Virus record (IMG/VR): IMGVR_UViG_3300041809_000101
Location: 1-28,198 of that record
Source: a virus
Reading direction: 5' to 3' (one strand)
Length of the DNA: 28,198 nucleotides
The notes under the pieces: generated by a model
The model's database searches: none
Told to the model about the DNA's origin: nothing
The model's input: the letters and a program-made list of their open reading frames with translations, nothing else
Made by a program: the position numbers and the translations under genes
In this document: one piece after another, positions 559-28,198 of the stretch
Layout: every line of letters starts with the position of its first letter
How positions within the stretch are numbered: position 1 is the stretch's first letter

Positions 559-566
559 GCTAAATA
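559..566 (+). promoter_or_regulatory. Late-type promoter box (GCTAAATA) for the plus-strand gene at 572
   Basis: This is the only TAAATA I found on the plus strand, and it lies upstream of the only plus-strand gene. Exactly five bases (CCTGT) separate it from ATG 572, so a T4-like late start would fall on the A of the ATG and give a leaderless mRNA. No Shine-Dalgarno is present upstream. Confidence 0.65.
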
Positions 567-571
567 CCTGT

Positions 572-2881
572 ATGTCAGACCAGTACATACAAGTTACGCC
601 GGATTCCACGGGCAAAAAGATTGACACATCCGAAATCACCGTAAACTCGAACACCGTCGAACGGCAGCGTGTTGTCATTGGAGACCCCACAGCCGCCGAA
701 TCATTCGTCACGGTCACCGGAAATTCAGCGCAGACCATTCTGACTACCCCTGGCGGCGCTGGAACTTCTCCGTATTTTGCGACCATCCAGCCAAACGCAC
801 GTGTCCGTGTCGCCAACGAAACTTCCGAATTGTTTTCTGATGGTTTTGATGGACCAACACTCAGTTCAATAAGATGGTCGGGTCTGTTTGGTTCTGTATC
901 TATTTCAGCCGGAAATTTGGTCTTTGCTACTGGTACAGGTGCTTCAACTTATGGCATGGTAACTTCCAATCCAGTATTCATTGCGGCTGGTATCAATAGC
1001 TTGCTCTTCAAAGCCGCAGTGCAATTTGAAGCATCAGTTGTAACGAATACACACCGTTTTTGGGGATTAGGTACACCGACTTTATCGCCTTCAGCCACAG
1101 CACCGATGGTCAATGCAATTGGATTTGAAATTGACACTACCGGCGCATTGAACGCTGTTGTCTATTCAGGTGGAAGCAGAACAGCCACAGCTTTGACTGC
1201 GGTAACAGACGGAAACTTCCACACTTACAGAATCATTTTCAGTAAGGAAAAAATCAGCTACTACGTTGACACATACGATGTTCCTGGAGCGGTGATTAAC
1301 TACGTACTTCCGGTTATCAGCACACTTCCGGTTCACCTTCACTGCATTAACAATTCGACGCCGCCTTCCCCGGCCCCAACGTTCAACATCATTTCAGTTG
1401 CCCTCGCAGATACCGGCCCGAATGAAATTTCGATTTCCGATGCCAACAATCCATTTTTAGGAACCAGCGTGTCGGCCACAGGAAGCCTTCAGGTGGCCTT
1501 GCAAGACGGCACAGGTCAAACTAACAAGCAAGCATACGTCGATGCCAACAACTCGCTTCAGGTCGTCTTAAACGCCGATCTGGACAGCTTGAAAACCGGC
1601 AATGCGTTTACCCTTGAACACGCACTTCATGATCCGACGTACCCGACTTACGTCAAGTTTGATCGGTATGGAAAGCAGATCGGTGGTACATCAATTCCAG
1701 TTACATTGGCATCTGATGATATTGTTCCGACAGTACCAGCTACAGCGCCAACAATTGCTGGCGCTATCAACGGAAACGCCGTCATAATTGGTCCAATCGC
1801 TACGTCGGGGTATCCAGCCGCCACCGTACACGTATACGGTGCAGCATATAGCTTGACAATCATCTTTGAAGGCACATTAGATGATCCAATTTCGGGATCG
1901 TGGACAACGGTAGCTGCTGTCAACTTGGCGTCTGGTGCTGCTATCACTGCTGCAACAGCCGTTACCCAAGCCGCACCGACTTCCTATTTGGTGTATTGTC
2001 CTGGCTTCCAATATTTCAGAGTTCGTTGTACCGCTTATACTTCTGGAACAGCTTTAGTCAAGATTGCCCGTACTGCTGTAGTTCCGAACCCGTTTGCTGG
2101 TGCAGTTACGGCTACTGGCGGCGCTGGAGTAGGCAGTGTTGCATCTGGTAACCCGATTGAAATAGCCGGTACTGACGGAACGACAGCCGTCACCATTCGT
2201 CAAGCAACAGTTACGCCACCTAACGTACCTCTAACTCTTCCTTACAACTCAGCATTAACAATTGGAAGTGTCTTTCCGACCTTGACTGCGTTAACTGGTC
2301 AGACTACCTCTCAGCCAAACGTGATGTTGATGGGAGGTGTTGATGGAACCTATGTTGCATCAACAGCACAAGGTTTAACTAACGCTGCTCAGTTAGGGTA
2401 CGCCCGTGCTCTCCTTACAGACGCTTCCGGTGTCCTTCAAGTCAACAATGTTGCTGAAGGACAGCACCGTATCGAGACTCGTGAGACCAATGCATTGCTC
2501 CTTCAGATCCTCAATGAACTGGACATGAATAATGCGTTGGCAGAACACATTCCATCGTTCCTTGCTACTATCAACTCGCTGAACGATTCGATTGTTGCGG
2601 CGCAGGCGCTCTCCATTCCATCATCGCAAATTGTCAGTGGACAGGTAACTCTCAATCAGACGGCACAACTTCTTCCGAACAGTGCAGGACACACCATAAC
2701 GATCCAATCGAGCAATGCCAATGCCGTGAACAACATCATCATTTACTGCGGCCAGCAAGGGCAGGAATATTTTGAACTACAGGCAGGGCAGTCGCAGACG
2801 TTCAATATCGCTAACTTGAACTTGATCTCTGCTTACTGCAATGGTGTGACGACGGCGGCTCTAAACTACATTGTGCAGTAG
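572..2881 (+). CDS. Large adhesin/tail-fibre-like virion protein with LamG-like domain
   Basis: This 769-residue protein is the only one encoded on the plus strand. I chose ATG 572. An in-frame TTG at 557 runs through the TAAATA promoter box and is unlikely to be used. The N-terminus (QVTPDSTGKKIDTSEITV, residues 7-24) is a style common at the start of phage tail-associated proteins. Residues about 87-285 resemble a concanavalin/LamG-like jelly roll: an FDGPTL..IRWSG opening, then a GFEIDTTGALNAVVYSGG segment and a final HTYRIIFSKEKISYYVD strand pair. The middle contains an IPVTLASDD motif typical of phage fibre proteins, and the C-terminal 75 residues form a Gln/Asn-rich beta domain. It is likely surface exposed and may bind glycans (inference). 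It converges on the 2884-4116 gene with a two-base gap. Confidence 0.8.
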   Translation: MSDQYIQVTPDSTGKKIDTSEITVNSNTVERQRVVIGDPTAAESFVTVTGNSAQTILTTPGGAGTSPYFATIQPNARVRVANETSELFSDGFDGPTLSSIRWSGLFGSVSISAGNLVFATGTGASTYGMVTSNPVFIAAGINSLLFKAAVQFEASVVTNTHRFWGLGTPTLSPSATAPMVNAIGFEIDTTGALNAVVYSGGSRTATALTAVTDGNFHTYRIIFSKEKISYYVDTYDVPGAVINYVLPVISTLPVHLHCINNSTPPSPAPTFNIISVALADTGPNEISISDANNPFLGTSVSATGSLQVALQDGTGQTNKQAYVDANNSLQVVLNADLDSLKTGNAFTLEHALHDPTYPTYVKFDRYGKQIGGTSIPVTLASDDIVPTVPATAPTIAGAINGNAVIIGPIATSGYPAATVHVYGAAYSLTIIFEGTLDDPISGSWTTVAAVNLASGAAITAATAVTQAAPTSYLVYCPGFQYFRVRCTAYTSGTALVKIARTAVVPNPFAGAVTATGGAGVGSVASGNPIEIAGTDGTTAVTIRQATVTPPNVPLTLPYNSALTIGSVFPTLTALTGQTTSQPNVMLMGGVDGTYVASTAQGLTNAAQLGYARALLTDASGVLQVNNVAEGQHRIETRETNALLLQILNELDMNNALAEHIPSFLATINSLNDSIVAAQALSIPSSQIVSGQVTLNQTAQLLPNSAGHTITIQSSNANAVNNIIIYCGQQGQEYFELQAGQSQTFNIANLNLISAYCNGVTTAALNYIVQ

Positions 2882-2883
2882 TC

Positions 2884-4116
2884 TTAGATGTCTTCTGTCC
2901 AGGTGACAGCTATAGTACATGTTGCTGATGCACTTGCGAATGCAGTAATACTCATAATTTCTCCGGGCGCAATGTACAATTCAGCATTCGTTAAGTCAGT
3001 GACAAAGCTGCCAGAGGAATTCTGTGTGACGAAGCCATATTGATAAGTTCCACCAGAAACAGTCGTCCCGGCCACGTCGTAAGAAGCAACAGAATTTCCA
3101 GCCGTAATCGTCGCACCGCCGCTGGCTGGTGTTCCATTGACTGCGCTATAGGAAGGCGTTCCTCCAATAGTTGCTCCCAACTTGAACCGAATGATTGCAT
3201 AGTTGGTTCCGCCGCTTGTTGTCAGTCCAGAAATTTGTGCAAGTCGAATGATTCCACGATTCGGTATTCCATTATAGCTTGTGGCGTTCTGTATGTTTAC
3301 CAAGCAATTTTCTGTCGTGATTCCTGTCTTAGAAGAATCTATTGCCCATTTCGGATTGGAGACAAACGACTGCACGCCGCTTATCGAAATTCCGACAGAA
3401 CCACAGTACATGATCTGATTTGCTGTGTTGCCGCTGTTCGCAGTGAAGCCCAAAAATTGCAACGACGGATTTGACAATTCCGGTGTTGTTACTGTGTTAG
3501 CATAACGAACTGTATGCACCAAAACCCATCCGCCCGTCGTCTGATTTTCGACGTAGAAGAAGATGTTTCCGAAGCCAAGATACGGGTACTTAATCATGAC
3601 CGGCGAACCAAGTGTCGGGTTCCATGTCATACCATTGACTGTGCCGTTCATTGGATTGCCGTTCCAAGTAGATTGAGCGTACCAAGTTGGCGTACCACTA
3701 ATGTAGTGTGCGATGGAAAAAACAGTGCCATTGTAGCCGAAGAACCATCCATCATACGGTGCATTCGATGCGATTGTACCAACTCCCATCACTGAGATAT
3801 TGCTGGCAACACCTTGTGTGAAAATAGGTGTGAATCGCACATTGGTGCCTTGTCCTGCCCGATACCGAATGGACTTCCTTGACGAGATGTATGCGTAGCT
3901 CGTAGAGGATGTGCCGCTCTGAATTCTCAGACGACCACTGTTAGTATCGACAGCAGCGCCAGTGCCAGATGTGACGCCACCCGCTCCCAATTGACCCCAA
4001 AGCTGTGTGTTCAGTCCATAGACGAAATCGCCCTGAATTACATAGCTCAATTCTGCGGTTTCAAGCGTACCGAACGCTGACAAATTTGAAGGGTCAATGA
4101 TGTTGTTCTGTGGCAT
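2884..4116 (-). CDS. Putative tail-fibre/adhesin-like virion protein
   Basis: This 410-residue protein starts at ATG 4116, five bases downstream of a CATAAATA box, with no Shine-Dalgarno. The N-terminus (residues 13-36) carries AFGTLETAELS followed by a GDFVYGLNTQLW segment. Around residues 80-160 are SSRKSIRYRAGQGTNVRFTP and DGWFFGYNGTVFSI, a beta-rich pattern I associate with phage surface or fibre proteins of environmental myoviruses. It is rich in Gly, Ser, Thr and Asn, with no signal peptide and no membrane helix. Its stop is two bases from the stop of the opposing adhesin gene, with no terminator between. A receptor-binding or decoration role is inferred from composition and context. 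Confidence 0.75.
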   Translation of the reverse strand: MPQNNIIDPSNLSAFGTLETAELSYVIQGDFVYGLNTQLWGQLGAGGVTSGTGAAVDTNSGRLRIQSGTSSTSYAYISSRKSIRYRAGQGTNVRFTPIFTQGVASNISVMGVGTIASNAPYDGWFFGYNGTVFSIAHYISGTPTWYAQSTWNGNPMNGTVNGMTWNPTLGSPVMIKYPYLGFGNIFFYVENQTTGGWVLVHTVRYANTVTTPELSNPSLQFLGFTANSGNTANQIMYCGSVGISISGVQSFVSNPKWAIDSSKTGITTENCLVNIQNATSYNGIPNRGIIRLAQISGLTTSGGTNYAIIRFKLGATIGGTPSYSAVNGTPASGGATITAGNSVASYDVAGTTVSGGTYQYGFVTQNSSGSFVTDLTNAELYIAPGEIMSITAFASASATCTIAVTWTEDI

Positions 4117-4121
4117 GTTTG

Positions 4122-4129
4122 TATTTATG
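4122..4129 (-). promoter_or_regulatory. Late-type promoter box (CATAAATA), five bases before ATG 4116
   Basis: The minus strand reads CATAAATA-CAAAC-ATG. A T4-like late start would fall on the A of the start codon. No purine-rich ribosome binding site lies within 15 bases of the start, which fits a leaderless message. The box lies between the stop of the 4132-5580 gene and the start of 2884-4116. Confidence 0.65.
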
Positions 4130-4131
4130 AG

Positions 4132-5580
4132 CTATCTTTCCCACCAGCCCATCTCGAATGTGTATGGAAGATTTGCCATACCAACTCCTGTCATCCAGAA
4201 GTAAATCGTCATGGCTGTGCCTGGACCCATAATGATCGGAGGGATCACACTTACCTTTCGGCCCGGATACGATTGATCTCCTGTGGTTGCAGAGTAAGCA
4301 GCAGGATCGGTTGTCCCACTTATTAAGACCAATTCATCTCCTGGCGTCGGCGCACCAAGAGATGCATTCGCAACCATTATGGACACGGATGATGACGCCC
4401 CCAATGCCACAGAGTTGACAGAATTGACGGCGAAAACCTGTGCTATAGAAAGATTGGTACTGGCGTATTGGGAAACCGTGGGCAAAAGAGGATCTAGCTC
4501 GACAACATATCCGATCTGACCGTTCATCAAATCTCCAATGACTTGTATCGAATTGGTGGCAGAAGAGAGTGGACCGTTGTCGAAGAAATCGAACGAACTG
4601 CTGAGACGATCTGTGCCGGTCACTGTCGTGAAAGGATCACCCGTTTGGTTCCACGCCAGTCCTACCATCCAAGAATTCGGCTGCGTCGTAAGCGTGAGTG
4701 TAAGCGTGCTGTTTCCACTTGAGGTCGATGTGCTGAAATTCGTCGGTGGTGTAGTCTGAGAGACACCGAAATATGAGACTGCGTTGATGGTGCTGCAATT
4801 TTGATCTGTTGTGATAGATGCACTGCCAGCCGATACACCGGCAATGAAGTACAAGTTCACATTGTATGCCGATCCATTGTTATTGTTCGTCATACTAAAC
4901 ATCGGTATACCATTGCATTGGACATTTGGAAAGGTTCCATATGACAATGTACCAACCAGCAGAACTTCATTGCTACCGCTTCCTACAGTGATGCTCAACG
5001 TCTGGCCGCTGCCTGTTGTGATGGCAGAATTATCGTAGGTGATGGCCGGGGCAGAAGACAATACGTTAGAACTGCAAGGACCGAAATCGGAATTTGGAGA
5101 GACAATCGGAGCGGGATTCACGCCATCCCAAAAGAAATTTTGAGATACGAGAGTTCTCTGAACTGGATCAAGGATTATGGCAAATCGAGCACTGCCCCAA
5201 TTTGGATTTGTCCAGGCCGTGCTAGAACTAAGAAACATGTCCGGGTCGATTACCACTTTGAGATAGTCCAGATAGAATCTCTTTGCTGAGAGATTCGTTT
5301 TGTTATCGTTATTTTGAACGTAGATGAACGGCATCGTATCCAAAAAATTTGGATAGATAGGATACGTCAGCGTGTAGTCTGGTTGATAGAAAGACGCCGA
5401 AGAAGTTGTGAAATACGATCCCTCGTCGGCCAACAGGTGTTTTGTCGGAACCGGCGAGAGGACGTACTGTTCACCATACGAACCACCACGGACGTTGACA
5501 CCAATTCGTTCTTTGTCCGGTGTTCCTGGTGGTAAATTTTCAGCGACAGTATACCACTGTGTTGCGTCTAGTCCCGGCAT
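4132..5580 (-). CDS. WWER-family paralogue 4, enlarged by an inserted beta domain
   Basis: This 482-residue protein is the last member of a four-gene tandem family. It has the family N-terminus (MPGLD, then NVRGGSYGEQYVLSPVPTKH and a LADEGSYF motif) and the shared end FEMGWWER. Its paralogues are 256-273 residues. The extra length is one block, about residues 174-370, between the SPNSD motif and the resumed family sequence (AQVFAVNSVNSVALGASS). The insert has the pattern of a bacterial/phage surface beta-sandwich domain: VLLVGTLSYGTFPNVQCNGI, then SASITTDQN, SYFGVSQTTPP and an NSWMVGLAWNQTG strand. Start ATG 5580 follows a strong AAGGGAGG site. It is probably a virion surface protein, with the inserted domain projecting outward (inference). 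Confidence 0.8.
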   Translation of the reverse strand: MPGLDATQWYTVAENLPPGTPDKERIGVNVRGGSYGEQYVLSPVPTKHLLADEGSYFTTSSASFYQPDYTLTYPIYPNFLDTMPFIYVQNNDNKTNLSAKRFYLDYLKVVIDPDMFLSSSTAWTNPNWGSARFAIILDPVQRTLVSQNFFWDGVNPAPIVSPNSDFGPCSSNVLSSAPAITYDNSAITTGSGQTLSITVGSGSNEVLLVGTLSYGTFPNVQCNGIPMFSMTNNNNGSAYNVNLYFIAGVSAGSASITTDQNCSTINAVSYFGVSQTTPPTNFSTSTSSGNSTLTLTLTTQPNSWMVGLAWNQTGDPFTTVTGTDRLSSSFDFFDNGPLSSATNSIQVIGDLMNGQIGYVVELDPLLPTVSQYASTNLSIAQVFAVNSVNSVALGASSSVSIMVANASLGAPTPGDELVLISGTTDPAAYSATTGDQSYPGRKVSVIPPIIMGPGTAMTIYFWMTGVGMANLPYTFEMGWWER

Positions 5581-5600
5581 GAACGCCCTCCCTTAAGGAT

Positions 5601-6371
5601 TTAGCGTTCCCACCAGCACATCTCAAATTCGTAGGTAAACGCAGACATTGATCCAGCCCACAGATAAACGATCATGTTGCTACCTGGACCAACAATGATT
5701 GGAGGAACAAGACTGACTTTTCTTCCAGCAGATGCGGATTGAGCAGCCGTCAGACCGGCATAAGCGCCAGCACCCGGCGATCCGCTCATGATAACGATTT
5801 CATCTCCAACCAACGCAAGCCCACCCATATTGCAAGTAGCTACCACACGAGAAACAGAAGATGGCGCAGTTACAGTCGGAGCAGCAGTAGCAGCATAGTT
5901 TACTGTTGTGACCGATGTTGGGTTGATATCGGAGTTTGGAGAGACTACCGTGGAAGCCGTCATGTTAGCTAGACCACCGTTGACGATTGGATCTACGATG
6001 ACTGCCATGTGGAAGTTTGTAGAAGCGGTTGCCGATGCAATGATGACTTTCAAATAGTCAAAGTAGACACGCTTACCAACAGGGTTCGACTTGGAATCAT
6101 TGTTCTGCAAATACATGAATCCGTATGTCTTTCCGAAGGACTGAAAGTTGGCACCAGAGCCACCTGTCAAAGCTGTACCCGGCGTCGGGTTTGTTGTCAT
6201 GAAGTATGTTCCTTCATCGGCCAACAAGTGCTTCGTCGGCATCAAATTCAAGATGTATTGTTCAGCGTAGCGGCCACCACGAACGTTGCCCACAGGAGAC
6301 TTTTGGTCTGGTTGTGCTTGCGGCAATCCACGAGCAGGTGTCCATAATTGGTTAATATCTATTCCAGGCAT
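5601..6371 (-). CDS. WWER-family paralogue 3, putative virion protein
   Basis: This 256-residue protein starts at ATG 6371 behind an AGGAG/AGAAG-rich leader. It shares with its neighbours the N-terminus MPGIDINQLWTPAR, the NVRGGRYAEQY and PTKHLLADEGTYF motifs, a YLQNNDSKSNPVGKRVYFDY strand, an SPNSD turn, a GRKVSLVPPIIVGPG segment and the C-terminal YEFEMCWWER. Here the Gly of the usual EMGWWER is Cys. There is no signal peptide or transmembrane segment, and a beta-rich fold is likely. I do not recognise a characterised family. Multiple tandem copies inside a structural cluster suggest a capsid or tail decoration or fibre component. Confidence 0.8.
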   Translation of the reverse strand: MPGIDINQLWTPARGLPQAQPDQKSPVGNVRGGRYAEQYILNLMPTKHLLADEGTYFMTTNPTPGTALTGGSGANFQSFGKTYGFMYLQNNDSKSNPVGKRVYFDYLKVIIASATASTNFHMAVIVDPIVNGGLANMTASTVVSPNSDINPTSVTTVNYAATAAPTVTAPSSVSRVVATCNMGGLALVGDEIVIMSGSPGAGAYAGLTAAQSASAGRKVSLVPPIIVGPGSNMIVYLWAGSMSAFTYEFEMCWWER

Positions 6372-6417
6372 TTTTCTTCTTTTCTCCTATTCTTTATCTA
6401 CCGCTACGCAGTAGAGG

Positions 6418-7239: not shown

Positions 7240-7249
7240 CTAATTCTCC

Positions 7250-8041: not shown

Positions 8042-8091
8042 GTGTGTAAAATTCTCCTAAACCACTGGTATCTAGCTTGGTTCTCTCTTCG

Positions 8092-8099
8092 TATTTAGA
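8092..8099 (-). promoter_or_regulatory. Late-type promoter box (TCTAAATA), proximal promoter of the WWER operon
   Basis: TCTAAATA on the minus strand lies about 50 bases before ATG 8041. It is the downstream member of a pair. The transcript would begin near 8086 and carry an inverted repeat (AACCA...TGGTT) before the AGGAG site. Confidence 0.55.
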
Positions 8100-8117
8100 T
8101 CCGAGGCAACCTGTTCA

Positions 8118-8125: not shown

Positions 8126-8139
8126 TCCGTTTCAGACAC

Positions 8140-8814
8140 TTACTTTTCCAAAACAGGCACAGAGAACCGCAGCGATATCAGTTCCACCGGAGCTTCTACG
8201 GTATCGGAAGAGTCCCGTGTCATGCGGAAGAACAATTCACCAACTGGAGGAAAATTGGTGGTGTCAATTGTGATCGTGGTTGTCGAGAGTTGATTGATCG
8301 TGCCAGAACTGATGACCGCCGCTACGACTGGTGGTCCAAAGGGATTTGACTGAAGGACCGATCCGACAGGCACACAGCAGCTTTCAAATTTCCAGGCCAC
8401 CGTTCCTAGCGTGCTTGCGGTGCGCCAGACGGCATCGACGGACAAGGGGGTAGTCCAGCCTACCGGAAGCAGGAAATGGTCCTGTATGACCTCTCCTACG
8501 TCAAATGAGGCCACTCCTGTGAGGATGCCGGTGTCTTCCGTGTATGCGATGGCTTCAGGCCCCTGGTTCAATGGAGAAGAGAACCCAAGGCTGGCTTGCC
8601 CTTGTTGCACAGAAGCCGCCCGGTACATCAGATAGCGAACGTGAGCGTATTCTACCGCTTCGACTTTGAGAGGGTATCCACCGGCTTTCATGCCATCATG
8701 AACGACAGCACACCACTTGTCTGTATCGACGGTAATCTCGCCTGGAGCGCCAGTAAAGACTTCGGTCTGAGCAGTGGTGCCACGACGGAATTGTACGACT
8801 TTGAAATCTGCCAC
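8140..8814 (-). CDS. Tail-fibre-type protein with Mtd-like N-terminal domain
   Basis: This 224-residue protein starts at GTG 8814, five bases after a TCTAAATA box and without a Shine-Dalgarno. Residues 9-45 (FRRGTTAQTEVF, GAPGEITVDTDKW, then VVHDG and GGYPL) match the well-known repeat-like N-terminal segment of phage tail fibres and of the major tropism determinant, which anchors fibres to the baseplate. The C-terminal half (PVGWTTPLSVDAVWRTAS, VAWKFESCCVP, FFRMTRDSSDT and a final LISLRFSV) matches a jelly-roll pattern seen at the ends of many small phage fibre proteins. It is likely a short fibre or adsorption protein. There is no variable-repeat/reverse-transcriptase cassette nearby. Confidence 0.75.
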   Translation of the reverse strand: MADFKVVQFRRGTTAQTEVFTGAPGEITVDTDKWCAVVHDGMKAGGYPLKVEAVEYAHVRYLMYRAASVQQGQASLGFSSPLNQGPEAIAYTEDTGILTGVASFDVGEVIQDHFLLPVGWTTPLSVDAVWRTASTLGTVAWKFESCCVPVGSVLQSNPFGPPVVAAVISSGTINQLSTTTITIDTTNFPPVGELFFRMTRDSSDTVEAPVELISLRFSVPVLEK

Positions 8815-8819
8815 AGCAG

Positions 8820-8827
8820 TATTTAGA
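8820..8827 (-). promoter_or_regulatory. Late-type promoter box (TCTAAATA), five bases before GTG 8814
   Basis: The minus strand reads TCTAAATA-CTGCT-GTG, the exact five-base spacing seen at five other starts. It lies directly after the tandem stops TAG-TAA that end the 8833-9072 frame. The predicted mRNA starts at the G of the GTG codon. Confidence 0.6.
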
Positions 8828-8832
8828 GCTTA

Positions 8833-9101: not shown

Positions 9102-9539
9102 CTACTTGATGCTGATTGTCCGTGTGATGACTTCTTCTTCCTCGCCGTCTTCACCTTCTTTGTTTGGAGTTTTGATAGTAGTCTTCCAACCAATGAAAAA
9201 TTCGGTAGGAGCCTCTTCGATCATTTCCACCGCTCCCAGGACCATTGTCTGAATGTGACGCCGGAAATAGACTAGTTCCAATTTTTGATCGACTGCCAGG
9301 ACGGGATCGCCGGAAAGCACATTGAACGGAACGCCATCAATTTCAAAATGGCCGTCTCGTAGGTCTACAGCGTAAGTGTGATCGTCATTGAAAATCCCGA
9401 ATACTTCAACATCGGCCTTCCGTTGAACTACGTCATAGTATGCGCTGCGAGTAGGATCGAGTACGGAAACATCTTCTGGAGTTTGTTGGATGAGGGTGCC
9501 GTCGTTGAGATGGCATTCAAAGAGATACGAGAGCTTCAT
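9102..9539 (-). CDS. Conserved small phage protein, paralogue of the 115-501 product
   Basis: This 145-residue protein starts at ATG 9539, chosen because the paralogue at 115-501 begins at the equivalent residue (MKLSYLFEC versus MALDYLFEC) and because a TATAAATG box lies exactly five bases upstream. A longer frame to 9665 is open but overlaps the HNH gene. Shared features are a DGT..QQT segment, Asp-Val-Ser, a Ser-Ala-Tyr-Tyr-Asp-Val motif, VDLRDGHFEIDGVPF, YFRRH and FIGWKTTI. Compared with the paralogue it has an acidic insertion near the C-terminus (KEGEDGEEEE). Function is unknown; late expression is inferred from the promoter. Confidence 0.8.
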   Translation of the reverse strand: MKLSYLFECHLNDGTLIQQTPEDVSVLDPTRSAYYDVVQRKADVEVFGIFNDDHTYAVDLRDGHFEIDGVPFNVLSGDPVLAVDQKLELVYFRRHIQTMVLGAVEMIEEAPTEFFIGWKTTIKTPNKEGEDGEEEEVITRTISIK

Positions 9540-9544
9540 AATGA

Positions 9545-9552
9545 CATTTATA
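9545..9552 (-). promoter_or_regulatory. Late-type promoter box (TATAAATG), five bases before ATG 9539
   Basis: The minus strand reads TATAAATG-TCATT-ATG, seven of eight bases matching the T4 late consensus. It contains the TAA stop codon of the HNH gene, so promoter and stop overlap. This separate promoter would uncouple the 9102-9539 gene from the inserted endonuclease gene. Confidence 0.6.
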
Positions 9553-12251: not shown

Positions 12252-12253
12252 AA

Positions 12254-16100: not shown

Positions 16101-19100
16101 CCTGATTGTTGATGTGGATGATATTGGTGCCTTGACCACCATTACCTTGTTGGTACACCCATGTGCTCGGATCTGTAGCGATCAAGTTCTGAATGGTTGC
16201 GGCGTCATTTCCTACCACGTCGCCAGCAGCCAACTGGACACCAGCGCCAGCACCGGCAGCACCATTGGCTGCTCCTGTAACGGTCACTGTGCTTGTAGTC
16301 GTGCTCTGTGGCTGGCCTACCCACGTGGTTTCCCAATCACCCCAGGTTACTTGGCTCCACTGATTTACTGTGTATCCAGCCAGAGCGGTATCGTTCGACA
16401 CATTGATGGCCGGGAGTTGTACCGTGTCTTTCCAGGTGTCCGTATTCGGATTCAATGCGATGTCACCGTAATAAGTGAACACAGCAAATGGATTGACGTT
16501 GATAATGTCCGTAGCAAATGTTTGTTGAATCGTCACTGCTTCTGTATACGGCAGAATCAACATGTTGCAACGATTCACATAGCCGGAAGATGCATTCGGC
16601 TGGAAGATCATTGAATTCGATGTCTGATTGAAGATCGGGCGCAACGTGTTGGTAGATGGATCGACGGCGCATCTGTAGTCGCTGTCGAAGATGTTTCCAA
16701 CGGAATGGTCTACGAAATTATCAACCACAAAGCCGTTCTTGAAACGATCCAGGCCGGTGCTACTGTCAGTCACAGAATAGGTGGCCGTAGCAGTTTCAAG
16801 TTGATTCAAGTTTGTATAGTATTCCAGGTTCGCAATACGTTGTTCCAGCTTGCCAATGTCGTGCATAGTATAGCGTGGATTCTTCGTAGGCGTGGTCGTC
16901 AAATCCGATACTGACAACGTATACGGATTCAACTGAACAGTGTACAGCATCATGCCGTCGATTGGATCGGCTGGCGGCTGCGGATTCAATGCAGAGACGC
17001 CCTTGATGACGTTGAAGTTTCCGTATTGGTCGAGATAGATTTTGTCGATTCTTCCCAAGTAATATTGGAAGGCGCAGGACGTTGTTTCACTTGGTTGCAA
17101 CGGTGCCGAATAGCTCGATCCGGTTCCAGAGAAACCAAATCCAAAGTTATCCTTTCTCGGTCTGAAGTCCAAGCAATCACGTAAGGTATAGAATCTTCCA
17201 TTCGATGCATTGTAAGTCGGGATTCCTACGTAGTTGTTCAGCGAAGAATAGCTGTCAACAGAGAAGTAGTCGCCGCCCGAAGAATGGGAGAAGTATTGAA
17301 ATTCGATCAAGACTCTTCCTGCCGGTCCTGGAGCATTCGGGTATTTGGTTATGCTGCCGATGTCGTAGAAATAGTCACGCTGGCCCGTATCGAACGCATA
17401 CTGATTTTTGATATCAGGATCGCTTGTCGTTGCATTTATCGCAGGGTTGCCAGAGTCATGGATTGCGATTATATTCACAATGTCTGCTTCTTGCAGAGAC
17501 ATTGTGGCAGTTGGATTCGGATATGCAAGCGGAGTTGCTATGACAAGAGCCTTTGTCTTTTCCTTGGCACCTATCTTGTTCAACGTCGCCATGAGCTTGA
17601 TAATCGTGTTGCCAGAGGTTCCAGATCCTACGCCAGACGTAATGTAGAAAATCAATGTCGTGTTCGCAGGAGATCCGCTAAAGCTACTTCCGCTAATATA
17701 CGGTGCCAAGTTAATGATCTTACCCACATTCGATGGAGTAGCCGTATCCTGAATGATCGTAGCCATGTAGTCGGTTGGGGTGAATGGCGCAAATGGAGCA
17801 TTGGCTGTCGTTGTGAATTGGTACTTACCGCCAGTGGCAATCGTGCCCTGCAATGCTGTCCGAACAAAATAGTTGGTCTGAATGGAATTGTCGGCTGCAC
17901 GAACTGTCTTTATCAATGGAGATGGCATCGGGTAAATCAAGGTCGATGCGACAGTGTTGAAGATCTGTGTGCGCCCGGAGAGCGTACCCGTTGTAGCTGT
18001 TGCGCCGGAACCAGTCGTGAATGTTCCGTTCGTCAAAATTTGCTTGCCGTTGCTGACAGATGGCTCGGTGATGATATTGTTGTTGATAGCATCATAGGAG
18101 ACCAGAAGCTCAGTTCCGATTCCGCTAGGTCCAGTGATCGTTGCACCTGGGACCAAACCCGTACCGTTGACGTTCGTTGCATTGAAGGCCGCACAGATGT
18201 CACCAGCGCAATTTAGACTTTCTCCCAAGTTATTGTGAGAAGGATCATTCACCAAGAAGAAAGATCGAACTGTGTTGATATCGACACCAGGATTCATGTT
18301 GATGTCGAACAAGTACATTTTGAAAAGCGCAGATGGGTCGCCAGCGTTTGCTCCCTGAACGAATTCAATGGAGTGGACTCTAGCAGTGCCAAGTCCGTTG
18401 GTTGCCACACTGAATGTTCCACCGATTCCGGTTGACTTGATGTTTGAAAAATTGATCGTCAAGAAGTCTGGAACTGCGGCTGTCGTGTCCGGGAGAGGAA
18501 TATTTCTCAAGTTCTTGACGAACACAAACGATCCGACTGGAGTAGGGATCAACGCACCATTGGCCTGTCCGCTGTCTCTTGCTTTGTCCATTTCAACATA
18601 AGTTGTGGACAGAGTGTCGATACGATAACCATCTACGTAAGCTCTTCCAGATTCCAGACCGACTGCCAATTGGTCAGCTTCGCCATAAGGCGCAGCCGGG
18701 TAACCTGGAGGTGGATTGGTTGGGTCCGGTGGCGGCGGCGCATAGACACCACGATTGACCTTTGTAGGATCTGCGATTTCGTAAGATGTAGTGATGTCAG
18801 CAACTTGATTCGGTGCGTAGTCCTGATCCAACTGAGCCGTCTTTGTCGAACCGTTGTAACTTGTGATTGTGAAAGTCTGTCCTGCACCAGATCCATTGTT
18901 CAAATAGATCTGCATGTTATTGTAAGTACCATCAACTGCCGAAGCATTCGTTGCCAGACTGATAGTAGCAGGAGCGGCAGGAGAAGCAACAGCAACCGTT
19001 GCGCCCGTGGCAATACCGGCTGTCACAAACGATGTGTCCAAACTCTCCCGCACGTCGATGGAGAAGTTACGAACCGCAAAGTCTCCGTTCGCATCTGCCA

Positions 19101-19971
19101 TACGAGTTGCCATTTCTTTCAAAATGACGCTGTAAGTATCGGTAGAAACTTTTGCCTGGGTGACACTGTTGATAAGACGAACCAATTCCACGAAGTTGTT
19201 GTCGGTTGTGGTGTCCGTCAAACTCTTACTGGTAAGGGTAAGATCAATCTTGTAACGATGAGCGCCAGGAGCGGCATAGTTCGTGCTGCCCTGTGCATTG
19301 TCATTCAATGAAGGATCTTCTTCCGGTGTGATGATAGATTCTGCGATTTCAAGTCCAACACGACAGCTTACGATGTTGGAGTACTTGTTCAACAAAAGAT
19401 ACTGCTGTTCGACACGTACAAAGATGCCCCAAATGTAATAGACACCTTCATCAATCTGTGCCGAAACTGCAAGGCCGGTTGGTGAATTTGATGCTGTCTG
19501 AGCAAGACCTGTGGTCGAATTTGCGATGGCAAGAACTTCGTTGCTTGCGAACACCGTTGCGCCGTTGGTGCCAGTATTGAGGTACTTCACATAGATCGTG
19601 TTAGGATCTGTATTGACGGCGGCGACTGTGTAGACGACCTGTGCTTTCAATCCGGTGGTCTGTCCTTGAATGATCTGACCGTTGAACAATGCCAGATTGA
19701 TCGGAACTGGCGTGCTTCCTACGAAGCCGTAAGTTGGTTGCAGACACACATAATTGGTTTTTGGATCTGTAGCAACCTGACCCGGAATCACCATCGAACC
19801 GTGCTGGTAAATCGAATTTCCCAGGTACGTCAATTGCTGTTGAAGAATGGTCTGCTCTTGCGTAAGTTCACGGGCTTGGACCGCTACAGACGGGCGAAAG
19901 AGAATGCGGTAAAAATGCTTCGTCTCGCTGTAATCGTCATTGTACGGTGTGATGTTGAAATTCAGTGGCAT
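13117..19971 (-). CDS. Giant DUF4815-type T4-like virion structural protein (2284 residues)
   Basis: Start ATG 19971 is 15 bases after a GCTAAATA box; a clear Shine-Dalgarno is missing. The N-terminus (NITPYNDDYSETKHFYRILF, then RPSVAVQARELTQEQTILQQ) is the signature of the DUF4815 family of T4-like virion proteins encoded near the baseplate genes. The family motif NPRYTMHDIGKLEQRIANLE is at about residue 1030. Then come a Thr-rich linker (about 1310-1330), the IRSRRIQVIG..FKPNTQLFPFFDGTDV segment (about 1361-1388), a VKEQGGCYVSSITVYFQTTD segment (about 1569-1590), and near the C-terminus ITRQFNL..SNSLNVIFSINLPPG (about 2172-2198). It probably forms a tail-fibre or outer baseplate assembly; the exact role is not established by the sequence. 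The four-base gap to the coiled-coil gene suggests co-expression. Confidence 0.85.
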   Translation of the reverse strand: MPLNFNITPYNDDYSETKHFYRILFRPSVAVQARELTQEQTILQQQLTYLGNSIYQHGSMVIPGQVATDPKTNYVCLQPTYGFVGSTPVPINLALFNGQIIQGQTTGLKAQVVYTVAAVNTDPNTIYVKYLNTGTNGATVFASNEVLAIANSTTGLAQTASNSPTGLAVSAQIDEGVYYIWGIFVRVEQQYLLLNKYSNIVSCRVGLEIAESIITPEEDPSLNDNAQGSTNYAAPGAHRYKIDLTLTSKSLTDTTTDNNFVELVRLINSVTQAKVSTDTYSVILKEMATRMADANGDFAVRNFSIDVRESLDTSFVTAGIATGATVAVASPAAPATISLATNASAVDGTYNNMQIYLNNGSGAGQTFTITSYNGSTKTAQLDQDYAPNQVADITTSYEIADPTKVNRGVYAPPPPDPTNPPPGYPAAPYGEADQLAVGLESGRAYVDGYRIDTLSTTYVEMDKARDSGQANGALIPTPVGSFVFVKNLRNIPLPDTTAAVPDFLTINFSNIKSTGIGGTFSVATNGLGTARVHSIEFVQGANAGDPSALFKMYLFDINMNPGVDINTVRSFFLVNDPSHNNLGESLNCAGDICAAFNATNVNGTGLVPGATITGPSGIGTELLVSYDAINNNIITEPSVSNGKQILTNGTFTTGSGATATTGTLSGRTQIFNTVASTLIYPMPSPLIKTVRAADNSIQTNYFVRTALQGTIATGGKYQFTTTANAPFAPFTPTDYMATIIQDTATPSNVGKIINLAPYISGSSFSGSPANTTLIFYITSGVGSGTSGNTIIKLMATLNKIGAKEKTKALVIATPLAYPNPTATMSLQEADIVNIIAIHDSGNPAINATTSDPDIKNQYAFDTGQRDYFYDIGSITKYPNAPGPAGRVLIEFQYFSHSSGGDYFSVDSYSSLNNYVGIPTYNASNGRFYTLRDCLDFRPRKDNFGFGFSGTGSSYSAPLQPSETTSCAFQYYLGRIDKIYLDQYGNFNVIKGVSALNPQPPADPIDGMMLYTVQLNPYTLSVSDLTTTPTKNPRYTMHDIGKLEQRIANLEYYTNLNQLETATATYSVTDSSTGLDRFKNGFVVDNFVDHSVGNIFDSDYRCAVDPSTNTLRPIFNQTSNSMIFQPNASSGYVNRCNMLILPYTEAVTIQQTFATDIINVNPFAVFTYYGDIALNPNTDTWKDTVQLPAINVSNDTALAGYTVNQWSQVTWGDWETTWVGQPQSTTTSTVTVTGAANGAAGAGAGVQLAAGDVVGNDAATIQNLIATDPSTWVYQQGNGGQGTNIIHINNQAYSCGPEYGGQASVQVNVAGAGGGQTTTTTTTVNTTQQIQQTQVGTQTEVVAQLSSQTVNNAVVGTYLSPYIRSRRIQVIGRHFKPNTQLFPFFDGTDVSAFCRPYQDTQITPSLSGASWTMQKMSWGGDYDPQTNNNEGTTSDTNDTGFTGSFLVGPLNAPIMTDHIGTTTLFFEIPCTASNEFRVGVRPFRLTDSQTNDNNADTYGDANYNASGIIEQDQDTITSIYTPEVITKQVSQSQVITQNLGSTSSTTSSVSGGGGDTTLTLWIDPIAQSFLVKEQGGCYVSSITVYFQTTDSSVPITMQIRNMVNGYPGQDVVPFSEKVLYPNNPTLSALTAAGVIPDNTIDPLTPAVINISDDASVGTTFVFDCPVYLSDGTEYAFVLIANSVQYFLYTAKIGDTVVGSTNIVSTPPYLGNLFKSQNASTWVADPSQNLKFIINKAQFDPTVSGQLYFTNSSVQPDTLQSLPFQTVSGSNVVRVYHQNHGMPKGSYSNSVVTLNNIAAGTYNGLTDVQLTGTFPINNVDLNTYTITVPGTAASSTSRVGPDGVVATKNIQFDSICPITNTFAPTGSSIAWSALFTSGKSPNNNSYAMQEPYIKDTIWNPITTNTTSNFTAPRMVASDINETTSIVGTSAYDRKSMVFNATLATTSANLTPMVDLTRTSAILIGNEIDDPSFSNYTIQAMDQGTTIPSALVTSSNYLNFDSQVLIQVVGVTGGQFQATPSGETVTGAVSGAYGTVVAWNGLTLTLGSVHGVFQDTEAITGQTSGAIGTVSSFQYLNTITNMQPGSPSPTPGTLDFSVFVPGYALTITGTEVGGGGSPIYSYTNPVTIVAVSGNQIIVDATPPFTQAYVQTNIGLTQYVRFVAETAPDNCTTTCHYITRQFNLANSSNSLNVIFSINLPPGAFVDCYYRILAANSTQAFGTIPYVQMELDSTVDNTPSTNPNQYKDYSYTANSIGPFTAFSIKLVMRGGNSSQVPLIQSFRGIALAV

Positions 19972-19986
19972 GTGTGCTCTATCTGC

Positions 19987-19994
19987 TATTTAGC
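19987..19994 (-). promoter_or_regulatory. Late-type promoter box (GCTAAATA) for the DUF4815 gene
   Basis: GCTAAATA on the minus strand lies in the 38-base gap after gp8. The predicted start at 19981 gives a 10-base leader (TAGAGCACAC) with at most a GAG core as ribosome binding site. Confidence 0.6.
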
Positions 19995-20009
19995 CGTGTT
20001 TCTGAAGGC

Positions 20010-21587
20010 TTAAAACTCAACCACAATCTTGATGTCTTCTACCTGATCGGATGAACGGGCAATCGGGCGGCGATTTTCCAAATAGACAATCTCGCCCACA
20101 TATGGTGCTAAGTCTGGTGCGATGATACTTGCAATATTATATACGCTCGTGCCATTCGGTGTGATCGTCCAAGGTGTGTTCACCGTGGCTGTTCTGTTTG
20201 TTCCTACGTAGCCAGTAATGATTCTTGTCTGACCTGTGCCTACACCGCCGCTAATGAGGATCGTCTGTCCTACGTATGCGCCCGAAGCTGCTGACGCAGA
20301 ATTTGGAAGAACAATCGTTGTAGACGTTCCGCTAGTAGCTGTTCCTGTTGTGGTCAAAAGGACACCACTTGCTTCCGATCCAACTACTGTTTCGCCTGGG
20401 ACAAAGGTTCCTACCACTTCGGCCAATCTCAATGTTGGGCCTGGACCGACAGGATCTAATCCTTCAGAGTCATAGTCAACTACGACACCAGTTGCACCGC
20501 TAGTGCTTCCTGTAACCGTTTCATCGCCAAGGAACGTAGCGCCGCTCACTGTTCCGAAAGTCAGTCGCCACATTTGATCGTAGTCCAATGCGACGGCAGC
20601 GGTGACACCATCATTCAACAGAGGATTCTTCAAAATACCAACACGGCGATAATCATTGTTGACGGTGAACGTTTTGTTTTCGTCATAGGTCAACTTTGTG
20701 TCGATGAGAACGAAGAAGCCGCCTAATTCCGAAACCGGATCTGCGCCATGACCGGCGAACGGAGAAATTACAGCCGTCGCTACAGCACCATTTGCACCCA
20801 CGCCGCCACCTGTAATCACAATGTTGGCCCAAGTGTAACCCGATCCTGAACTTGTCACGATGATAGACGTGATGTTTCCTCCGCTGATAACCGGAGATGC
20901 TGTTGCTCCAGTTCCATCACCGACAATCGTGATAGTAGGCGTGACCGTGTATTGGGAGCCGATGCTTACCATGTCGATACGATCAATCGTTCCTGGAACT
21001 GCCGCTTGCTGAACGAGCCACTGTGCAGAGCCATCGTTCGTGGTCAAAGTCTCTACCGGGAACCATTCATTCGTCACAAAGTTCAAAACATCAGCAGAGT
21101 TGACTGTGAACATGTACTTCCATTGGTATCCGTCTGCGCTTGTCACAACGCTTGTCGTCGTACCAGTAGGCTTTACTGTCGAAGCAACGCCACCATGATT
21201 ATTGAGGCATTTGTAAACGTTCAATGCGTCCGTGATGACAAAGAACGGAGGTAGCCCGCCCGATGGATCGAACAAGTCGATAGAATTGCTGTATTGCGTA
21301 TAGACCGTACCAGTGGTCCAATCATAGCGTGGGACAACGAGGCTGACCGTGCTTGGAGAAATGAGCTTGGCAGACATCATGTCACGGAATGCAGCGCCTT
21401 CTTCGTATTCACAATCAATCGGAGTTGGCGGCGAATTGTCATTGCTACCAGCGTAAGGAAAAGCTCCTTGATCCCAAGGCAGTGTGCGCCCAATGAAAAG
21501 GTAAAGATTTTGTCCAGGAGTCGAAAAGCCGCTGATGAACTGATTTGCGGCGTACACCCTCATGTTTGTTGTGACTATTGCAGCCAT
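20010..21587 (-). CDS. 8: Baseplate wedge protein gp8-like
   Basis: This 525-residue protein starts at ATG 21587 with CGGAG 8-12 bases upstream. The N-terminus (NLYLFIGRTLPW, residues 27-38) and the block around residues 116-162 (ITDALNVYKCLNNHGGVAS, then PTGTTT and ADGYQWKYMFTV) are hallmarks of the T4 gp8 family, a wedge component of the baseplate. The protein is longer than T4 gp8 (334 residues). The extra C-terminal part holds beta modules: GDGTGATASPVISGGNITSI, a VGTFVPGETVVGSEASGVLL type repeat, and a VGTGQTRIITGYVGTNRTAT module also seen in the gp7-like and DUF4815 proteins. Position directly after the gp7-like gene matches T4 order. Confidence 0.9.
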   Translation of the reverse strand: MAAIVTTNMRVYAANQFISGFSTPGQNLYLFIGRTLPWDQGAFPYAGSNDNSPPTPIDCEYEEGAAFRDMMSAKLISPSTVSLVVPRYDWTTGTVYTQYSNSIDLFDPSGGLPPFFVITDALNVYKCLNNHGGVASTVKPTGTTTSVVTSADGYQWKYMFTVNSADVLNFVTNEWFPVETLTTNDGSAQWLVQQAAVPGTIDRIDMVSIGSQYTVTPTITIVGDGTGATASPVISGGNITSIIVTSSGSGYTWANIVITGGGVGANGAVATAVISPFAGHGADPVSELGGFFVLIDTKLTYDENKTFTVNNDYRRVGILKNPLLNDGVTAAVALDYDQMWRLTFGTVSGATFLGDETVTGSTSGATGVVVDYDSEGLDPVGPGPTLRLAEVVGTFVPGETVVGSEASGVLLTTTGTATSGTSTTIVLPNSASAASGAYVGQTILISGGVGTGQTRIITGYVGTNRTATVNTPWTITPNGTSVYNIASIIAPDLAPYVGEIVYLENRRPIARSSDQVEDIKIVVEF

Positions 21588-21603
21588 TGTATTCTCCGTA
21601 ATC

Positions 21604-21611
21604 TATTTAGG
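21604..21611 (-). promoter_or_regulatory. Late-type promoter box (CCTAAATA) for gp8
   Basis: CCTAAATA on the minus strand lies in the 32-base gap after the gp7-like gene. The predicted start at 21598 would give an 11-base leader (CGGAGAATACA) beginning with the Shine-Dalgarno. Confidence 0.65.
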
Positions 21612-21619
21612 CACAGTTT

Positions 21620-25579: not shown

Positions 25580-25592
25580 CCTTCCTTACCCC

Positions 25593-27398
25593 TTATGCAT
25601 TAGCCAAAACCGTAACTGAAACGTCTGCCGGTTTGATGAACAAGATGTTGTTCCGAACCGGGATGATATCGTTCTGCTGTGGAGTCATAGTAATAGTCAC
25701 GTTGCCATTTACATCGGCGGAATACGGAATGAACTCCTGAATTGTGATTGCGCCCGTCAGGTAATTGACTGTACCGCAGGACGCACGCACGACGGCATTA
25801 GGTGTGCCAATGCCTTGTTGAATCAACTGAATGTTTCCGTTGCCGTCATCTTTGAAAGAATAGGTGTTTCCATTCACATACGGCAGCAGCAACTTAGGAT
25901 CTTGCACCACAATGAAGTTGGTTGAAGTAAGTGTTCCAGGGACAACCGGGTTGTAGTAATTCAGAGTATAGTTCGTAATCACATTCAACGTCGGCGCAAA
26001 AATTTTCTTGATCTGTATCGTTGTCAAGTTATTGGTGATACTCACGTCGCTGCCATCAATTGCCGACAAGAGTTTGGAATAACGGAACTCCAAATCGAAC
26101 TTATCCAGATTCAAGGCAGCGTAGTTCACAATGGCGTTGTATGCAGCACTCTTGATGTCGCCTTCGGTCTTGAAAGTATTCGCCGGTAAGTATTTCACCG
26201 TGCAGTTGACGTTAATGAAAGTATAGTCGGGGTCGATGAACTCCGGGATGACCGACACGATGTTGATTGGTCGGATCAAGTTTCCAAGCACCAAAGACTT
26301 TGCTTCTTCTGTGATGACGAAGCCATCCACCGGCTTGATCGAAATGAAGACCTTTCCATACTGCGGTGGAACATTGTCTTCGCCGCCCCATACCGTTACT
26401 GAATCTGCATTCGAGTATTGCTCTGTGACTTGCAAGACGTAATCCGCCGCCGTGACTGCTCTCTTCTGTGTCTCAAAATTTTTCGGAGCGGAAAAACGAA
26501 TCTCGTCCGTAGTCTCGGCAACCAGACCACCAGCCGCACTCACTAAGGTTGTGACCGCCGTGAGGTTCGCCGGGTAGCCAGCCAACGGAACTGTAGGACT
26601 GAAAGACGAAGCACCATTCGCCGCTGGACCGTCTGAAATGACATAATCTACAATGACGATGTTTCCATCAATCAAGGCGCTGCCAATAACGCCATCACCA
26701 AACTTGATTTCAAACTGTTGATTCTCAACTTCCTGCAAGAAATATGCATTCGTGGTTGCTGTCAGTTCAAGAAGATTGTCGGCCAAAGAGAAGCTAGTCA
26801 GTGTTGTATTGGTCTGTGACTGCTGGACCCGGACTACAAGCTGGCTGGTGTCGATATTTGGATTCGGCAACAGGAACCTTTGATTTGGAACTGTCGAGTC
26901 AACCGTGATTCTGTAAGTGTACGGAACACCTTCCAGCAGCGTGACATTCGGAAATGTGAAAACGCCATTTTGAATCGTGGCTCCATACGCCTGATTAGTA
27001 ATGAAGGTGTAGACTGTGCCATCGACGTTGGAAGAAAACGTTGAATTCTCTTCAATGACAGCCGAAGCCGCACTATCATTCGGTGTAATCACGATGCTCA
27101 CTTGCGCCTGTGCGGACGTGACTGAGCGTGGAGTATAGTTCACCATCTTTGCCAGCGACACTACTGAGGATCGAAGATTGGCCGAATCTATGAACATTTC
27201 GTTGGCGATCATGTTCATGTAGAAGGCGTTGTAGTGAGTATTGTAAGCCAGGATGTCGAGAAGCACGGACAAGCCAGCGCCGTCGAAGTCGTAATCCTGA
27301 AACTGTGTCTGCGAACGAAGGTAGTCCCGGAGAGAAACCTTGATCGTATCGAAGTCAAGGTAAGAAACAAGCAGTTTGGAATTTGGAATCGTAGTCAT
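25593..27398 (-). CDS. 6: Baseplate wedge protein gp6
   Basis: This 601-residue protein starts at ATG 27398, one base after the gp25 stop (TAA-C-ATG), implying translational coupling. The N-terminal block (DFDTIKVSLRDYLRSQTQFQ, then DYDFDGAGLSVLLDILAYNT, HYNAFYMNMIANEMFIDSAN and SLAKMVNYTPRS, residues 15-95) is the signature of T4 gp6, the wedge protein that forms the ring joining six wedges around the hub. The gpJ-like core follows, including the RAVTAADYVLQVTEQYSNAD segment and the motif KVFISIKPVDG. Length is close to T4 gp6 (660 residues). It is preceded by gp25 and followed by the gp7-like gene, as expected. Confidence 0.95.
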   Translation of the reverse strand: MTTIPNSKLLVSYLDFDTIKVSLRDYLRSQTQFQDYDFDGAGLSVLLDILAYNTHYNAFYMNMIANEMFIDSANLRSSVVSLAKMVNYTPRSVTSAQAQVSIVITPNDSAASAVIEENSTFSSNVDGTVYTFITNQAYGATIQNGVFTFPNVTLLEGVPYTYRITVDSTVPNQRFLLPNPNIDTSQLVVRVQQSQTNTTLTSFSLADNLLELTATTNAYFLQEVENQQFEIKFGDGVIGSALIDGNIVIVDYVISDGPAANGASSFSPTVPLAGYPANLTAVTTLVSAAGGLVAETTDEIRFSAPKNFETQKRAVTAADYVLQVTEQYSNADSVTVWGGEDNVPPQYGKVFISIKPVDGFVITEEAKSLVLGNLIRPINIVSVIPEFIDPDYTFINVNCTVKYLPANTFKTEGDIKSAAYNAIVNYAALNLDKFDLEFRYSKLLSAIDGSDVSITNNLTTIQIKKIFAPTLNVITNYTLNYYNPVVPGTLTSTNFIVVQDPKLLLPYVNGNTYSFKDDGNGNIQLIQQGIGTPNAVVRASCGTVNYLTGAITIQEFIPYSADVNGNVTITMTPQQNDIIPVRNNILFIKPADVSVTVLANA

Positions 27399-27399
27399 G

Positions 27400-27795
27400 T
27401 TATCTCAATCTCTGGAGGAAGAACGTGATCGTCTGCGCCTGTGTGATGTTCAAGACATAGAACGTGATCGTCACATTGTAGCCGTCTTCCTGATAATTTT
27501 CCTCTACCTCTACGCTTTGCAACTGCGCCCTTGGTTCAAAGTTCTGAATCACATCGGTGATCGACTTCTGAATGCTCAAGGCCGTGATGCTCGTAATGTT
27601 CTCGAACAACATTGCCGTCACATTGCATCCTATCTCCGAATGAAAGGGCCGCTCGTAGTGCTTTGTAAGGACCAAATTCATGACAGAGGCTTTGGCGGCA
27701 TCGAAATCGTATAAGATGCCGATGTCTTTCTTCACTGGATTTGGAAGAAAGGCAAGATTTAAGTCACTGTAACGGTGAAAAATGTTCTGTGGCAC
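27400..27795 (-). CDS. 25: Baseplate wedge protein gp25
   Basis: This 131-residue protein has the usual family length. Start GTG 27795 is five bases after an ACTAAATA box; no in-frame ATG is nearby. The family fold is seen in YSDLNLAFLPNPVKKDIGIL (residues 9-28), an LVLTKHYERPFHSEIGCNVT block (41-60) with the conserved ERPF and IGCN residues, then LFENI and the C-terminal strands VTITFYVLNI. gp25 joins the sheath start to the baseplate wedge and is one of the core conserved proteins of contractile tails. The GGAG within the five-base spacer is only one base from the start and too close to act as a normal Shine-Dalgarno. Confidence 0.93.
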   Translation of the reverse strand: MPQNIFHRYSDLNLAFLPNPVKKDIGILYDFDAAKASVMNLVLTKHYERPFHSEIGCNVTAMLFENITSITALSIQKSITDVIQNFEPRAQLQSVEVEENYQEDGYNVTITFYVLNITQAQTITFFLQRLR

Positions 27796-27800
27796 ACTCC

Positions 27801-27808
27801 TATTTAGT
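27801..27808 (-). promoter_or_regulatory. Late-type promoter box (ACTAAATA), five bases before GTG 27795
   Basis: The minus strand reads ACTAAATA-GGAGT-GTG. A T4-like late start would be the G of the GTG. This promoter would serve the gp25-gp6-gp7-like operon, since no other box lies before gp8. Confidence 0.65.
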
Positions 27809-27847
27809 GCGTCAACTTAAGGACATCAATTACTTGGAAGAGATATA

Positions 27848-28138
27848 CTAGCCGCCGTTCGCAAAGACGTTTGGAGAACCTTCGCCGTCGAAATCTCCAC
27901 AGTTCACAGAGTCGCCAATTCGAGCAACAGGAAGGTTGTTTGCGAAGACATTTGGAGAGCCAGTAGCTTCTTCTCCATCGTGGCAAGCGGGGCCGCAACA
28001 GTGAGTCTCCCAATGGTCTCCGACACGATGAACCGGAATACCATTTGCAAATACGTTTGGAGATGCGGAGTCGTTAGGTCTGGACGGAAAGCAGCCGTGA
28101 CCGGTGCTCACGTCACCAAGGCGAACAATAGGTGGCAT
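27848..28138 (-). CDS. 5.4: PAAR-repeat spike tip protein (gp5.4-like)
   Basis: This 96-residue protein uses ATG 28138, five bases after a GTTAAATA box; a TTG at 28153 in the same frame overlaps the box and is rejected. PAAR features are MPPIVRLGDVSTGHG at the start, three SPNVFAN repeats (residues 26, 61, 88), and IPVHRVGD and LPVARIGD strands. Candidate metal ligands are H14, H37, H42, H46, C47, C48, C52, H53 and C80. Such proteins form the sharp zinc-bound tip on the central spike of contractile injection systems, and the size fits T4 gp5.4. The neighbouring gp25 and gp6 genes support the role. The spike protein itself (gp5) is not in the window. Confidence 0.9.
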   Translation of the reverse strand: MPPIVRLGDVSTGHGCFPSRPNDSASPNVFANGIPVHRVGDHWETHCCGPACHDGEEATGSPNVFANNLPVARIGDSVNCGDFDGEGSPNVFANGG

Positions 28139-28142
28139 ACCC

Positions 28143-28198
28143 CTATTTAACAAGTCGCCGGAACGTCCACCAAATCACAAAGAAGATTCCGATGAGAA
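28143..28198 (-). CDS. Partial membrane protein (C-terminal 17 residues)
   Basis: A minus-strand frame enters from the right edge and ends at TAG 28143-28145, encoding LIGIFFVIWWTFRRLVK. The hydrophobic stretch followed by RR and K is what the end of a transmembrane helix with a basic cytoplasmic tail looks like. The stop codon overlaps the TAAATA box of the PAAR gene (TAAATAG). Only the C-terminus is visible, so identity is unknown; a competing frame in the same bases gives no sensible protein. Confidence 0.5.
   Translation of the reverse strand, partial: LIGIFFVIWWTFRRLVK
28144..28151 (-). promoter_or_regulatory. Late-type promoter box (GTTAAATA), five bases before ATG 28138
   Basis: The minus strand reads GTTAAATA-GGGGT-ATG. 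The predicted start falls on the A of the ATG. The box overlaps the stop codon of the upstream partial gene. Confidence 0.65.

Follow-up and report, generated by a model that had tools for sequence, protein, structure and literature searches.

TAAATA boxes five bases before start codons point to leaderless late messages in a group of T4-like phages

In the window, the whole 28,198-nt stretch of viral DNA that we analysed, several late genes carry a TAAAT(A/G) box exactly five bases before their start codon. Judged from the sequence, these boxes are very probably T4-type late promoters whose +1 would be the first base of the start codon, leaders of 0–1 nt being counted together. By its gene content the window represents part of a T4-like myovirus genome: it encodes a PAAR protein (phrog_281), gp25 (phrog_261), gp6 (phrog_219), a 1319-aa baseplate-wedge-like protein, gp8 (phrog_438), a 2284-aa protein and fibre genes, and its closest cultured relative by gp6 is the Pelagibacter phage HTVC008M (42% identity). 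In the textbook case of T4 late transcription, the promoter gives messages whose leader contains a ribosome-binding site. In the mechanism that we propose, the boxes would be read by a sigma factor, presumably gp55-like, with gp33 and the gp45 clamp, and transcription from box, five bases, RTG would begin with the start codon's first base. The late mRNAs of the affected genes would then be leaderless, with a leader of 1–3 nt in relatives whose spacing is 6–8 bases, and translation would rely on leaderless initiation independent of a Shine-Dalgarno (SD) sequence, in which 70S ribosomes would probably start at the 5′ RTG.

Firstly, we enumerated every TAAAT[AG] in the window. Six of them are separated by exactly five bases from a gene's ATG or GTG start, five reading TAAATA and one TAAATG; all the sites reported in a preliminary description of this DNA were thus recovered, the positions that it gave (572, 4116, 8814, 9539, 27795 and 28138) being those of the start codons.

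561..574, plus strand: predicted leaderless late promoter of the 769-aa gene 572-2881; TAAATA 561-566, spacer cctgt, ATG 572, distance 5, base at -1 T
4114..4127, minus strand: predicted leaderless promoter of the 410-aa gene 2884-4116; TAAATA 4127-4122, spacer caaac, ATG 4116
8812..8825, minus strand: predicted leaderless promoter of the Mtd_N-type fibre gene 8140-8814; TAAATA 8825-8820, spacer ctgct, GTG 8814
9537..9550, minus strand: variant box of gene 9102-9539; TATAAATG (TAAATG 9550-9545), spacer tcatt, ATG 9539
27793..27806, minus strand: predicted leaderless promoter of gene 25 (baseplate wedge, phrog_261); TAAATA 27806-27801, spacer ggagt, GTG 27795
28136..28149, minus strand: predicted leaderless promoter of the PAAR gene 27848-28138 (phrog_281); TAAATA 28149-28144, spacer ggggt, ATG 28138

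The start at 9539 is backed by the alignment of its protein with the paralogue 115-501 from residue 1 (M1), that at 27795 by the alignment of gp25 with its relatives from M1, and that at 8814 by an N-terminal Mtd_N domain (PF18454, major tropism determinant N-terminal) running from residue 7. The leaderless layout is predicted for roughly one in four of the window's genes, among them gene 25, the PAAR gene and fibre genes. The G-rich spacers noted earlier at 27795 and 28138 are indeed present, but we rejected them as SD sequences: they abut the start, and the spacer of gp25 orthologues is fixed at 5 in length and variable in its letters (ggagt in the window, ccttt in the 118-kb relative G001, gtctt in the relative G007 and gtcgt in HTVC008M). 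Between positions 4132 and 8041 the window also holds four tandem paralogous genes, starting MPGIDINQLWTPAR or similar and mostly unannotated.

The remaining 8 TAAATA boxes of the window are not at distance 5, and some precede leadered genes with an SD sequence. Three of them provide a contrast.

21587..21609, minus strand: ordinary leadered late promoter of gp8; TAAATA 21609-21604, 16 nt to ATG 21587, GGAG in the leader
501..541, minus strand: leadered box of gene 115-501; TAAATA 541-536, 34 nt to ATG 501, AGGAG in the leader
19971..19992, minus strand: box before the gene for the 2284-aa protein; TAAATA 19992-19987, 15 nt to ATG 19971

The leadered box at 536-541 (minus strand) is divergent from the predicted leaderless promoter at 561 (plus strand). 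The paralogues 115-501 and 9102-9539 are 46% identical from residue 1, yet the one has 34 nt and AGGAG where the other has TATAAATG-N5-ATG. Because of this pair, and of the gp8 box with its SD sequence, leaderless and leadered late promoters appear to coexist in the window.

Secondly, we measured how sharply the boxes concentrate at distance 5. For each TAAATA, in-frame ATG or GTG codons of ORFs of >=50 aa were counted at distances 0-40, irrespective of annotation. Of the window's 13 boxes, 5 have an ORF start at a distance of exactly 5, whereas the other distances average 0.15 (P ~2e-6, floor 0.2). The preliminary description, which was concerned with one phage, held that a sharp peak at 5 among relatives would support its reading; such a peak is present in G001 (21 of 84 boxes against 0.85 per other distance, P 3e-22, the 21 sites not being fully independent since some of its endonuclease genes are mutually related), in HTVC008M (12 against 1.1, P 3e-9) and in G007 (4 against 0.15, P 6e-5), and a weaker one in Mosig (6 against 1.4, P 0.0035) and Melnitz-2 (4 against 1.2, P 0.03). 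The trait therefore extends from a single phage to a wide group that includes cultured pelagiphages. In G001 the matches at 110383 and 10469 were left out as doubtful, and that at 30706 is ambiguous. The same count gave no peak at distance 5 in T4, Syn9, S-PM2, P-HM2, Cr30 or DLP6; in T4 and the cyanophages the boxes cluster about 20-30 bases upstream of starts, an ordinary leader length. T4 itself was rejected as a user of the leaderless layout: its four distance-5 matches do not exceed background, one of them being internal to gene 9.

Pooling the de-duplicated genomes of the group gave 60 starts at 5, 3 each at 4 and 6, and about 4 per other distance, while the IMG/VR loci of relatives gave 119 at 5, with counts forming a shoulder over 4-8, falling to a trough at 9-13 and rising to another broad peak at 19-30. 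Neither TTG or CTG starts nor a shifted control box produced a comparable peak at 5 in the pooled genomes and IMG/VR loci. Start codons at distance 5 comprise 60 ATG and 10 GTG. When all hexamers were scanned at distances 0-30 in the window, G001 and G007, TAAATA at 5 ranked first (28 against 1.2 expected), above any SD sequence; the top hexamer of the same scan in T4 was AGGAGA. TAAATG at 5 is enriched as well in the window clade (5 against 0.9). These figures bear on the view that the layout reflects chance or wrongly chosen start codons. TAAATA is not rare in AT-rich DNA, but with P values down to 3e-22, and with M1 invariant in a nine-member alignment of gene 2 and across the alignment of gene 25, we regard this explanation as already refuted and its probability as negligible.

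Thirdly, we considered the bases around the predicted transcription start. The T4 late promoter is TATAAATA, with its first T at -13 (PMC2988020), and because it runs from -13 the sixth base after the box is +1; the earlier claim that T4 geometry places +1 on the first base of the start codon is in agreement with T4 numbering. Of the leadered boxes of T4, 78% have a purine at this position. Among the distance-5 genes of the group, 36 of 39 have a pyrimidine at -1, compared with 374 of 758 (49%) of the other genes (P 3e-8), which is an independent transcription-start signature, that of the usual pyrimidine-purine start. From the box geometry and this pyrimidine we predict that the 5′ end coincides with the start codon's first base. 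An SD sequence precedes 1 of the 39 distance-5 genes and 342 of the 758 others, the low figure being partly forced by the box, which occupies -11 to -6. GTG makes up 8 of 27 distance-5 starts in the window clade, against 8 of 58 SD-led starts, and 2 of 43 in the pelagimyophage-like group, all small numbers.

Upstream, the base next to TAAATA is A or C in 87% of 63 sites. C frequently takes this place in the window clade (CTAAATA), as A does in pelagimyophages (ATAAATAG), which may perhaps match differences in gp55 between the clades. A host sigma70-type -10 element, of the kind that gives rise to leaderless mRNAs in actinobacteria, is a further candidate for the box, and in its favour the -10 box of leaderless genes in other bacteria lies about 6 nt before the start codon. 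We consider such an element extremely unlikely here and rejected it, since TATAAT at distances 4-8 shows no comparable enrichment in the window clade, where TAAATA dominates; few one-mismatch variants of TAAATA are enriched, and no -35 element is visible, the 19 bases upstream of the box holding no other strongly conserved column in the 63 sites. The absence of a -35 element also holds for T4 late promoters (PMC2988020).

We then surveyed genes 2 and 25 among dozens of environmental relatives, where the distances between box and start are bimodal; both surveys were seeded with proteins having the layout, and so they speak to conservation and bimodality rather than to a genome-wide rate. Among 94 distinct contexts of gene 2, encoding the DNA end protector, 60 have the box at exactly 5, and a further 19 have it mostly at 4, 6, 7 or 8. 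For gene 25, the distance is 5 in 33 contexts and 4-8 in about 35 more, and a leadered promoter at 14-29 is found in 22. On a gp6 tree of 97 phages, gene 25 switches between the leaderless and leadered states at least about 8 times. The phage L339, of the 4-8 class, and its sister L344 (TATAAATATTAGTACAAAGGAAAGACTATG) differ in gene 25 by a piece carrying the SD sequence, and the sequence upstream of gene 25 in L326 and L327, neighbours of L339, is TATAAATATTAGTGTTATG.

With distances of 4 and 6-8 in some orthologues, leader length may range over 0-3 nt instead of being strictly 0. The main alternative to a start on the codon itself is accordingly a T4-type late promoter at which initiation occurs a few bases off, yielding near-leaderless messages with leaders of 1-4 nt, which would be almost as significant. 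It is favoured by the variation in distance: gene 25 orthologues have it at 4, 6 and 8, and the PAAR gene of L005, an 82% relative of the window, at 7. We nonetheless judge it unlikely, because the peak at 5 is far above 4 and 6, the codon has a pyrimidine before it and a purine as its first base, and there is no enrichment of TTG starts.

A further possibility is that the box is not a promoter but an A/U-rich translation element at -11 to -6, either a site for S1 or for non-SD ribosome binding or a TAA stop-start coupling. Its position is where a ribosome-binding site would be, and in a few cases (HTVC008M 7551, 11961 and 142349) the TAA closes an upstream ORF. Most boxes, however, do not end a long ORF, on which ground stop-codon coupling was rejected, and several are divergent. 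A tolerance of 1-2 bases in either direction would be expected of such an element; the identical hexamer at 20-30 in T4 and cyanophages is a known late promoter there; the pyrimidine at -1 is not a known translation signal; and the sister phages L339 and L344 alternate between a near-leaderless box and one with an SD leader. We thus find a translation element very unlikely and retain the late promoter with its start on the codon as the favoured explanation.

The clearest single case is found in HTVC008M (KC465899.1), where genes 2 and 4 diverge at 18914-18945. Their 26-bp gap reads GTTAC TATTTA TATC TAAATA AGGAT, that is, 5 nt, box, 4 nt, box and 5 nt: two back-to-back boxes, each 5 nt from a start, which would leave no space for an ordinary leader on either side. 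L243, L245, L247 and L248 have a nearly identical layout. The HTVC008M genes with the box-5-start layout at annotated starts include gp2, gp4, gp25, tail completion and tape measure, and those of the window gp25, PAAR and fibre genes, so that in both the layout serves late virion genes.

The preliminary description had also pointed to gp55, gp33 and gp45 as homologues to look for. All three are annotated in HTVC008M and have profile matches in Mosig, Melnitz, G008 and G010. In G001 only gp33 was found, in a contig that also lacks gp23, gp43 and gp44 and is therefore missing a region, and none of the three was found in the 28-kb window, itself an incomplete genome fragment. The gp33 homologue of G001 (30706, minus strand) follows TAAATA-gtatt-GTG, and some 30 nt later come another box and an ATG led by GGAG.

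Six of the 19 clear sites of G001 precede homing endonucleases of different families (GIY-YIG, HNH, LAGLIDADG).

7835, 36317, 81397, 89905 and 94535, plus strand: G001 endonuclease genes with TAAATA-N5-RTG
71995, minus strand: G001 endonuclease gene with TAAATA-N5-RTG

In G001 the box-N5-RTG unit behaves as if it were a portable cassette. The T4 homing endonucleases I-TevI and segB are alike in having a late promoter directly upstream of the mobile gene, but the T4 intron endonucleases retain an SD sequence, whereas the G001 genes have box-5-RTG without one (PMC2988022).

Compared with T4 late promoters (TATAAATA at -13 to -6, served by gp55, gp33 and gp45), those proposed here share the hexamer core, the lack of a -35 element and the control of many structural genes, and the T4 machinery is also encoded in cultured relatives. 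They differ in that the T4 box lies mostly 15-30 nt from the start, with an SD leader, against 5 nt and, as predicted, no leader in the window group, and in the base before TAAATA, which is preferably C in the window clade but A in T4. Cyanophage late promoters (NATAAATA; S-PM2, Syn9; PMC2984593) use the same box in related phages, HTVC008M being classed with the cyanophages in Kyanoviridae, but at distances of 19-30, with leaders and without a peak at 5. Much of the middle and late mRNA of Thermus phage phiYS40 is leaderless, yet phage and host are unrelated to those considered here and the system is not described as a T4-type late promoter system (PMC3594737). Mycobacterial leaderless mRNAs are alike in RTG at +1, in the cytosine favoured at -1 and in twin leaderless and leadered peaks, and differ in belonging to cellular genes and host sigma factors (PMC4633059). 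Our search on leaderless mRNA in T4-like phages, cyanophages, pelagiphages and gp55, with subscription papers thinly covered, found no earlier report. A pelagimyophage survey using the methods applied to cyanophages was unsuccessful in predicting middle and late promoters (PMC7029224); the box-5-start layout may be why it missed the late ones.

Relatives that include phages of the abundant ocean bacterium SAR11 appear to drop the leader for conserved virion genes. The layout offers a simple rule for start-codon correction and late-gene prediction in such genomes, and it opens leaderless translation to testing in a phage group whose near relatives serve as leadered controls, the gene 25 promoter having switched state repeatedly. 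Only tentatively do we extend this to a broader picture, in which a large T4-superfamily group from marine and other waters would use a 14-bp portable cassette, TAAATA-N5-RTG, for virion genes and mobile endonucleases, placing part of late infection on leaderless translation and possibly biasing host ribosomes towards phage messages. It would be speculation to link leaderless translation to the cultured members' own bS21. Ribosomal protein S21 is encoded by HTVC008M (91228-91431), Mosig and Melnitz.
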